Source: Microcaldota archaeon
GTDB taxonomy: Archaea > Micrarchaeota > Micrarchaeia > Micrarchaeales > Micrarchaeaceae
Reading direction: 5' to 3'
DNA length: 13,991 nt
Assembly: GCA_021816645.1 (NCBI GenBank)
Contig: JAKAXF010000008.1
Location: 1 to 13,991, forward strand
The notes under the pieces were generated by a model. The model did no database searches. It was not told the DNA's origin and worked only from the letters and a program-made list of their open reading frames with translations. A program made the translations under genes and the position numbers. Positions 9,891 through 11,476 of the stretch are shown piece after piece (within the stretch, counting starts at the first letter, position 1; each line of letters begins with the position of its first letter).

Positions 9891-10505
9891 GTGACGCGTG
9901 GTAAATTTATAGCCTTTGAGGGAATAGATGGGAGTGGAAAATCCACGCAGTCAAAGCTCCTCTACGAGTACATGCTAAGAAAAGGATACAACTGCGTACT
10001 TACCACAGAACCTTCAGATACCGCGATAGGGCAGTTTATACGCTCAAATCTTTCAGACCTTAAACTAGACGAATACGCCATCCAACTGTCTTTTACAGCG
10101 GACCGTGCAAATCACGTGGAAAAAGTAATACTGCCAGCACTTAAAAACGGTGTTCATGTAATAAGCGATCGGTATAAGTATTCCACCCTGGCTTACGGCG
10201 TGCTTACTTCTCTGCCAGAAAACAAGCTTAATGCTCTTTACGCTGCAAATGAACCCTTCCAGAATCCGGATCTTATCCTGCTTTTCGATATGGATCCGCG
10301 TAACGCCTTTCTTAATGGTCGCAAAAATCTTGACTCCTTTGAAAAGAAGCATTTTGCAGACAAGGACAGGATGGCAAAGGCGTATCTGGAGTTGTGCGCC
10401 GCGGACAAAAACTGCGTGAAAATAGACGGCTATCAGAGCGTAGAAGCTGTACACACCATTGTGGTAAAAGAAGTTCTCAAGATGCTCAGAGATAGTCCCG
10501 AATAG
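9891..10505 (+). CDS. tmk: thymidylate (dTMP) kinase
   Basis: The enzyme phosphorylates dTMP to dTDP with ATP, an essential step towards dTTP. The 204-residue protein has the usual length. The P-loop GIDGSGKST is at 11-19, TTEPSDTAIG supplies the conserved Glu-Pro of the substrate site, FTADRANHV follows, the DRY-type motif is SDRYKYSTLAYG at about 91-102, and the LID region contains NGRKN with several basic residues. A P-loop without arginine plus a basic LID resembles the bacterial type II arrangement (inference). The start is the GTG at 9891, with GGTG five bases upstream; a GTG at 9741 in the same frame would add 50 residues unlike any kinase. The stop lies 16 bases from the 3' end of the convergent tRNA gene. 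Confidence 0.95.
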   Translation: MTRGKFIAFEGIDGSGKSTQSKLLYEYMLRKGYNCVLTTEPSDTAIGQFIRSNLSDLKLDEYAIQLSFTADRANHVEKVILPALKNGVHVISDRYKYSTLAYGVLTSLPENKLNALYAANEPFQNPDLILLFDMDPRNAFLNGRKNLDSFEKKHFADKDRMAKAYLELCAADKNCVKIDGYQSVEAVHTIVVKEVLKMLRDSPE

Positions 10506-10521
10506 ATGCATAATCATAATA

Positions 10522-10636
10522 CGCCGGGAGCGGGAATCGAACCCGCGGAGGCCTATTCGGCCAAACAGCTTAGCAGGCTGCCGCCCTTTCGTGCATCGGT
10601 GCACGCGCATTCAATGTACCACTAGGCGATCCCGGC
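10522..10636 (-). tRNA. tRNA-Ser (anticodon GCU) with a large D-loop insertion
   Basis: The minus strand folds as a class II tRNA of 115 bases. The acceptor is GCCGGGA/TCCCGGC with discriminator G; the anticodon stem GCAGC/GCTGT closes the loop CTGCTAA, giving anticodon GCU for Ser AGC/AGU; a long variable arm has a GGCC/GGCC stem; and the T arm is GCGGG-TTCGATT-CCCGC. CCA is not encoded. The D stem GCC/GGC encloses TAGTGGTA followed by about 28 extra bases (10589-10616). These hold a perfect 6-bp hairpin, CGTGCA-CCGA-TGCACG (10590-10605). Without them the arm has a normal size, so an intron is likely, but I found no canonical bulge-helix-bulge. The gene follows SRP RNA on the same strand and converges with tmk. 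Confidence 0.9.
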
Positions 10637-10660
10637 ATTTTACTTCATTTGTTACACTGT

Positions 10661-10923
10661 GTGGCAAAAGCAGGAATTGCATCAAAACACAAGACAAAGT
10701 TTGTCACGCGTCCGTTCGATTTTGTATCCTAGAAGCGCAGTCCTGTATGCTTAAGGTTGCTCCTTCCGGCCTGGCCTGGTTCACACACAAATCCTGCCCA
10801 CTAGGGCAAAGTCTCATCACTTCCGCGCGGGCTTTGAAACATGCCTTGACACGCATCCTGCATTGGCCCGCCGTAAAGGGATTTGCGTTCAGGAAACCCT
10901 TAGCTTCCCGGCCTATTTGCCAC
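10661..10923 (-). ncRNA. signal recognition particle (7S) RNA
   Basis: SRP RNA scaffolds SRP19 and SRP54, which target ribosomes making membrane or secreted proteins to SecY. The minus strand contains the hallmark helix 8 with GTGAACC, AGGCC-GGAA-GG tetraloop and GAGCAACC (10755-10784). Next to it is helix 6, GCCC-TAGT-GGGC (10796-10807). The termini pair perfectly over eight bases, GTGGCAAA with TTTGCCAC (10916-10923 with 10661-10668), as archaeal helix 1. The Alu part has GGCC/GGCC (helix 2), a GGGAA/TTTCC hairpin (helix 3), then TGAAC, and loops AAGGG and CCCTT able to form the loop-loop contact. Helix 5 starts with GCAGGA/TCCTGC; its middle is only partly traced. At about 263 bases it is slightly shorter than many archaeal SRP RNAs. 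Confidence 0.92.
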
Positions 10924-10940
10924 TATATTATATTTCAAAT

Positions 10941-10952
10941 CAATTAAATAGG
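10941..10952 (-). promoter_or_regulatory. TATA box of SRP RNA (and perhaps of tRNA-Ser)
   Basis: The minus strand reads CCTATTTAATTG, centred near 10947, about 24 bases before the helix-1 5' end at 10923. A second AT-rich run, AAATATAATATAG, lies closer but would start the RNA inside helix 1. No promoter of similar quality precedes the tRNA. Confidence 0.55.
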
Positions 10953-10994
10953 TTGTTGTTAAGACGTCGTATTGTATACCGTGCGATTAGATAA

Positions 10995-11003
10995 GATTAT
11001 AAA
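10995..11003 (+). promoter_or_regulatory. TATA box of the aIF2-beta/aIF1A operon
   Basis: GATTATAAATC lies here. Transcription would start near 11027, so the in-frame TTG at 11006 cannot be in the message and the TTG at 11060 can. Confidence 0.6.
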
Positions 11004-11050
11004 TCTTGAATACGAGATATATCCAATCAGTTGCAGCACGCGCTTTTTCA

Positions 11051-11054
11051 GGTG
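11051..11054 (+). promoter_or_regulatory. ribosome binding site that fixes the aIF2-beta start
   Basis: GGTG is followed by five bases and then TTG at 11060, the same geometry as secY, cysS and tmk. Confidence 0.65.
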
Positions 11055-11059
11055 TACCA

Positions 11060-11476
11060 TTGGAAGACAACGAGTATGAAAGGCTTCTTGACCGCGCTCT
11101 TTCAAAAGCGTCAGCTCTCGCTGTGCAGAACGTGGACTTCGTAATCCCGAAAGTAGATTCGATAAACGAGGGAACGAAGACGATAGTGAGCAACATAACC
11201 GTGATAGCAGACAAGGCGAGGAGGAAAGCGGAGGAGATAGCCAGGTACCTGAGCAAGGAGCTCGGCGTGCCTGTCTCGATAGAGGGGCAGCGAATGATAG
11301 TAAACGGCAGATTCAGCTACAAGGATCTCGATGCCAAGATAACAAACTATTTCAACACCTACGTAATATGCAAGGAGTGCCACAAACCCGATTCACACCT
11401 GGAGAACGCGGGCAGGGGTATGCTGTACTTTGTATGTGAAGCTTGCGGAGCCAGGTACGCCGTTAAGAATTATTGA
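11060..11476 (+). CDS. eif2b: translation initiation factor aIF2 subunit beta
   Basis: aIF2 is the heterotrimeric GTPase that brings initiator tRNA to the small subunit. The beta subunit contacts gamma and helps tRNA binding. The 138-residue protein has the archaeal size and order: an N-terminal helix (EYERLLDRALSKA), the VPKVDS-like linker (IPKVDSINEGTKT), an alpha/beta core with NFxxIA-like SNITVIADKARRKAEEIARYL and the VNGRFSYKDL strand, and a C-terminal zinc ribbon with Cys104, Cys107, Cys126 and Cys129. The start is the TTG at 11060, supported by GGTG five bases upstream; an upstream TTG at 11006 overlaps the TATA box. The aIF1A gene follows nine bases later in the same operon. Confidence 0.95.
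   Translation: MEDNEYERLLDRALSKASALAVQNVDFVIPKVDSINEGTKTIVSNITVIADKARRKAEEIARYLSKELGVPVSIEGQRMIVNGRFSYKDLDAKITNYFNTYVICKECHKPDSHLENAGRGMLYFVCEACGARYAVKNY

Follow-up and report, generated by a model that had tools for sequence, protein, structure and literature searches.

A 30-nt insert in the D loop of a Micrarchaeota tRNA-Ser(GCU) gene, probably an intron with a relaxed bulge-helix-bulge motif

Introns in the D arm of archaeal tRNAs, with motifs resembling the bulge-helix-bulge (BHB), have been confirmed experimentally in the Crenarchaeota Aeropyrum and Sulfolobus, and the cuts fall between the second and third bulge residues, according to the available portion of PMC4307357. Canonical and relaxed D-loop motifs, together with the broad specificity of the ARMAN-2 splicing enzyme, are reviewed in PMC6379350, and that enzyme and the noncanonical introns are also treated in PMC4033280 and PMC12397907 (excerpts of each). 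The accessible section of the tRNAscan-SE 2.0 paper counts 673 noncanonical introns across 217 archaeal genomes (PMC8450103), while nothing on archaeal D-loop introns was found in the excerpt of PMC4090602. Here we describe an insert in the D loop of a tRNA-Ser(GCU) gene, of which no earlier report was found in the open-licence literature.

The gene lies in a stretch of 13,991 nucleotides of a contig (JAKAXF010000008.1) from an uncultivated Micrarchaeota archaeon with tiny cells, here called the window. Among ten proteins scanned Pfam names SecY, thymidylate kinase, an eIF2-beta/eIF5 domain protein, a V4R domain protein and Cdc6, and this Cdc6 is 97% identical to that of a Micrarchaeota MAG (locus L001, JAKAOQ010000034.1). 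The named relatives listed are mostly Micrarchaeota, Micrarchaeia or Micrarchaeaceae, some being filed as Marsarchaeota. Just upstream of the tRNA gene, and on the same strand, is an archaeal SRP RNA (RF01857, 10923..10661 minus, 89.3 bits against an Rfam cut-off of 96.5). The tRNA-Ser(GCU) gene itself, 10636..10522, is made up of 85 nt of exon and the 30-nt insert (Table 1). The energy minimum of the spliced form is a class II cloverleaf whose stems pair, and the complete class II tRNA-Ser(GCU) with extra D-loop bases that an earlier note on this DNA had described is thus borne out. The anticodon loop, CTGCTAA, is without interruption and the insert lies in the D loop, so that this is not the canonical 37/38 intron. 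ARAGORN reported no tRNA gene in the window, and none in the unspliced gene under any of four option sets; with the 30 nt deleted it reports tRNA-Ser(gct), 87 bases including one flanking pair, and it is because of the D-loop insert that the program overlooks the gene. Rfam at its gathering score found nothing across the window, and at a relaxed threshold, over 10400-11100, it places weak misfit matches on the tRNA gene (tRNA-Sec at 22.7 bits and two plastid UTR families). Searched against plasmids, the tRNA gene had no match.

Table 1. Features of the tRNA-Ser(GCU) locus, in window coordinates
Feature	Position	Strand	Evidence or remark
pre-tRNA-Ser(GCU) gene, class II	10522..10636	minus	coordinates; ARAGORN on the spliced form; homologues upstream of cdc6 in relatives
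5' exon of tRNA-Ser(GCU)	10636..10618	minus	
30-nt putative intron, presumably between positions 20 and 21 in tRNA numbering	10588..10617	minus	absent in 39 of 60 D-arm-matching genomes, present in 21 of 60; exact removal restores the intronless sequence
3' exon of tRNA-Ser(GCU)	10587..10522	minus	
anticodon of tRNA-Ser(GCU)	10574..10572	minus	
outer helix h, 5' strand GCCT (D stem)	10624..10627	minus	
outer helix h, 3' strand GGGC (D stem)	10583..10586	minus	
central helix H, exon strand AGTG	10620..10623	minus	
central helix H, intron strand CACG	10590..10593	minus	3 of 4 pairs, A.G mismatch at outer end; strict relatives have CACT or CTCT
intron helix h', 5' strand CATTG	10612..10616	minus	pair probability 0.97, first three pairs
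intron helix h', 3' strand CGATG	10594..10598	minus	pair probability 0.97, first three pairs
hairpin CGTGCA-CCGA-TGCACG	10590..10605	minus	overlaps and competes with H and h'; probability 0.029; such a hairpin in 3 of 24 variants
5' bulge GTA	10617..10619	minus	predicted cut between 10618 and 10617 (second-residue rule, available portion of PMC4307357)
3' bulge AAA (GAAA with the mismatch taken as open)	10587..10589	minus	predicted cut between 10588 and 10587

That the insert interrupts an otherwise complete tRNA is seen from the relatives. We searched 196 genomes from the phylum with D-arm patterns allowing inserts of 0-30 and 31-60 nt, which matched 53 and 7 genomes respectively, 136 of the 196 fitting neither. 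Among the 60 matching genomes 39 are without an insert, and in the other 21 its length runs from 15 to 59 nt. Many relatives without the insert read GCCTAGTGGTA joined directly to GGGC, which is the exact product of deleting 30 nt from the window, and the commonest intronless form, GCCTAGTGGTAGGGCGGCAGC (33 of the 39), is the window sequence minus those 30 nt. Removal therefore restores the sequence of an intronless homologue, as is expected of an intron. The earlier note had put the insertion at 28 bases and at 10589..10616; the intronless relatives and the exact removal give 30 nt, and the splice motif moves each end by one base, to 10617..10588, a one-base register ambiguity allowing 10616..10587 as well.

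A second sample consists of the best 80 of 161 loci from one collection scan with a Cdc6 alignment. With the window included, 16 of 81 loci have an insert of at least 10 nt and 14 have no insert; in the remaining 51 the pattern found none, though L007 among these is visibly intronless and a number are too short to tell. Where found, tRNA-Ser(GCU) sits upstream of cdc6, at a distance of a few kb at most. GCT stands at the anticodon place in all 72 D-arm matches in the collected loci, and the loop is (C/T)TGCTAA in 67 of them; at L126, L127, L166 and L169 the anticodon loop is CCGCTAA, with C for the usual T before the anticodon. The window and its 97% relative, L001, differ at 3 of 30 intron positions and at 0 of 85 in the exons, whereas the comparison with L002 (6 of 30 in the intron, 7 of 85 in the exons, one of these a gap) makes for a weak contrast in divergence.

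Does the insert carry the marks of a splicing substrate? We compared 24 distinct inserted variants, five of them taken from the genome pattern search. All can be set out in one order: from h (GCCT/GGGC) through H and a bulge of 3 nt (GTA, in one case GAA) to the intron, and from there through H' and a second 3-nt bulge (AAA or AGA) back to h. A strict BHB, with four of four pairs in H and two 3-nt bulges, is present in 19 of the 24, and in the other five (the window, L001, L002, L128 and L165) H has three of four pairs, all with CACG instead of CACT. The window thus lacks the 4-bp central helix between two 3-nt bulges, and the statement of the earlier note that there is no canonical BHB holds in this strict sense, but a near-canonical one had been overlooked. 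The flanking helices are both there, h as GCCT/GGGC and h' as CATTG/CGATG, and their pairing is maintained over the 24 variants. The window, L001, L002 and L128 have 30-nt introns with an h' of 5 or 6 pairs and compensated changes among them; L165 has a 32-nt intron with an h' of 2 pairs, and in the strict variants L166 and L169 a single h' pair directly adjoins the bulge. The CACG variant of the central helix occurs without a hairpin of the CGTGCA-CCGA-TGCACG type in L165 (G119) and L128 (G176).

The pairing across the whole set can be put in numbers. H covaries, as AGTG/CACT and AGAG/CTCT, and over the 24 variants standard pairs make up 91 of 96 in H and 66 of 72 in the first h' pairs. These counts fall to 12 to 55 and 14 to 30, respectively, once the 3' side is displaced by 1 to 3 bases. 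When 3' arms were shuffled among variants, h' averaged 34.9 and peaked at 48, none of 2000 shuffles reaching 66, and for H the mean was 85.7, with 3 of 2000 reaching 91. As H shows hardly any variation, its shuffle is a weak test. For h' the result is strong, though the shuffles ignore the relatedness of the variants.

From this comparison the insert is very probably an archaeal tRNA D-loop intron with a relaxed BHB, which the splicing endonuclease EndA would cut and whose exons would be ligated to a normal tRNA-Ser(GCU); this supports the first possibility raised in the earlier note, an intron whose splice motif is relaxed. The relaxed motif of the precursor would consist of h, supplied by the D stem, H, in which exon AGTG pairs with intron CAC(G), and h', CATTG/CGATG. 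Each bulge would be cut behind its second base (GT^A and AA^A) by EndA, probably the three-unit enzyme of Micrarchaeota. Excision of a tRNA intron is followed by a ligation step. A ligase would accordingly join the exons, giving a tRNA-Ser(GCU) of normal form whose D loop reads AGTGGTA, and we infer that the mature tRNA is used.

One might suppose instead that the 30 bases are never removed and that the mature tRNA carries them as an additional hairpin arm of its D loop, an idea also raised in the earlier note. The 6-bp stem with its tetraloop does exist, and its counterpart has 7 pairs in L001 and 5 pairs in L002. However, well over half of the matching genomes have no insert, its length is far from constant where present, and it is the pairing of the splice helices that is kept among the 24 variants, the hairpin having a counterpart only in the window, L001 and L171; the L002 hairpin ends one base earlier and falls outside the criterion behind this count of three. 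Free folding of the window's D arm gives h' a probability of 0.97, versus 0.029 for the middle pair of the CCGA hairpin. Because many homologues are insert-free and the hairpin is rarely conserved, we regard a retained arm as very improbable. The 6-bp stem with a CCGA loop is real as sequence, at 10605..10590, but it is probably not the operative fold.

Folding energies are less instructive. One would expect free folding to favour the BHB, but the splice register of H is not chosen: its probability is 0.003 in the window, L001, L002 and L128, a shifted register with single mismatches being preferred. Among seven D arms folded the BHB is the energy minimum only in L038, and even in L042, a relative with the strict motif, the minimum is another fold, at -12.4 versus -9.2 kcal/mol for the BHB. 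Constrained folds of the window come to -9.9 kcal/mol with the hairpin and -9.7 with the BHB, and the free minimum, -13.6, contains neither. Energy alone thus leaves the fold undecided, and it is the comparison with the relatives that decides. Might the intron of this subgroup switch between a splice-competent BHB and a hairpin in which the central helix is hidden, making the tRNA-Ser that decodes AGC/AGU mature in response to temperature or another signal? The two folds are within 0.2 kcal/mol in the window, but not in L001 or L002, and we consider such a switch a most unlikely proposition.

The same near equality, and a free minimum with neither fold, might be taken to favour cutting in another register, for example with the CCGA hairpin as the core and a large open loop. 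We hold this to be very improbable, as the BHB has the advantage over the hairpin in L001 (4.0 kcal/mol) and in L002 (2.3 kcal/mol), and a 3' side slid by up to 3 bases gives less pairing across the 24 variants. Nor do we give any real credence to a pseudogene or damaged copy, a reading suggested by ARAGORN's failure on the unspliced gene, since the exons match L001 at 85 of 85 bases, the stems pair, homologues lie upstream of cdc6 in relatives, and the second, normal tRNA-Ser(GCU) that the earlier note would have taken as a sign of a pseudogene did not appear in about 0.7 Mb of the closest relative's genome, where a single match is full-length and the only other one spans 14 bases.

If the insert is removed as an intron, an EndA should be at hand. 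The EndA family is present in 8 of 10 relatives' genomes, the exceptions being G001 and G002. The relative A_DKE carries an EndA of the ARMAN-2 type (L118), the sole EndA compared with solved structures, which matches the ARMAN-2 EndA 4fz2 over 4fz2 residues 10-389 (E 9.7e-167) and has a catalytic domain, a sen54-like N-terminal domain and an EndA N-terminal domain. A protein search with this enzyme found full-length relatives in G176 and G166, a shorter one in G003 and, in G002, a fragment close to the end of a contig. In the roughly 0.7 Mb of G001, the genome of L001 and the closest relative, neither the family search nor the protein search found EndA; as the completeness of this sequence is unstated, the absence is probably a gap in the assembly. 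We infer that the organism of the window has an EndA as well.

How does this intron compare with the described ones? Like the introns of S. tokodaii tRNA-Glu and A. pernix tRNA-Thr, it would be a D-arm intron with a BHB-like motif, cut between bulge residues 2 and 3 and removed by EndA (PMC4307357, available portion); unlike them it is in another tRNA and another phylum, has one mismatch in H, and its splicing is predicted. It also resembles, in archaeal group and in having a relaxed motif, the introns with relaxed BHB forms (hBH, HBh', bulge-helix-loop) that are cut by the three-unit ARMAN-2 EndA (excerpts of PMC6379350, PMC4033280 and PMC12397907). It differs from these in keeping both bulges, the 3' one enlarged by an A.G mismatch, and in that cleavage is predicted here. 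The window's intron thus appears to be an ordinary noncanonical archaeal tRNA intron with a relaxed BHB at an unusual but known type of site, and the general picture of archaeal tRNA introns is unchanged by it. What the comparative set adds is 24 distinct inserts at one site, along with intronless homologues, from which one can follow the drift of a strict splice motif into a relaxed one and the appearance and disappearance of such introns in Micrarchaeota.

A Cdc6 tree bears on this coming and going. Its 32 rows comprise 15 with the insert, 15 without and 2 unknown, L017 having been dropped as a fragment. The insert label requires at least six changes on the tree, three of them forced by well-supported branches, where shuffled labels average 10.4. 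At least six changes of label imply that gain or loss of the intron took place more than once at this site. The window clusters with L001 and L002 (100/100), all three having 30-nt introns.

Other tRNAs of the closest relative carry inserts too, despite EndA not having been found in G001. Eight tRNA loci of that genome, chosen mostly by length, were inspected; several resemble anticodon-loop introns by eye, and one, tRNA-Phe(GAA) (L181, G001:C14:11035-11147), bears a D-loop insert of its own, in which the BHB is strict and H is AGTG/CACT. Of 40 genomes searched for the strict D-loop motif on a D stem GCTC, 1 has it, that of the closest relative, so that D-loop introns with exactly this stem are uncommon in the sample.
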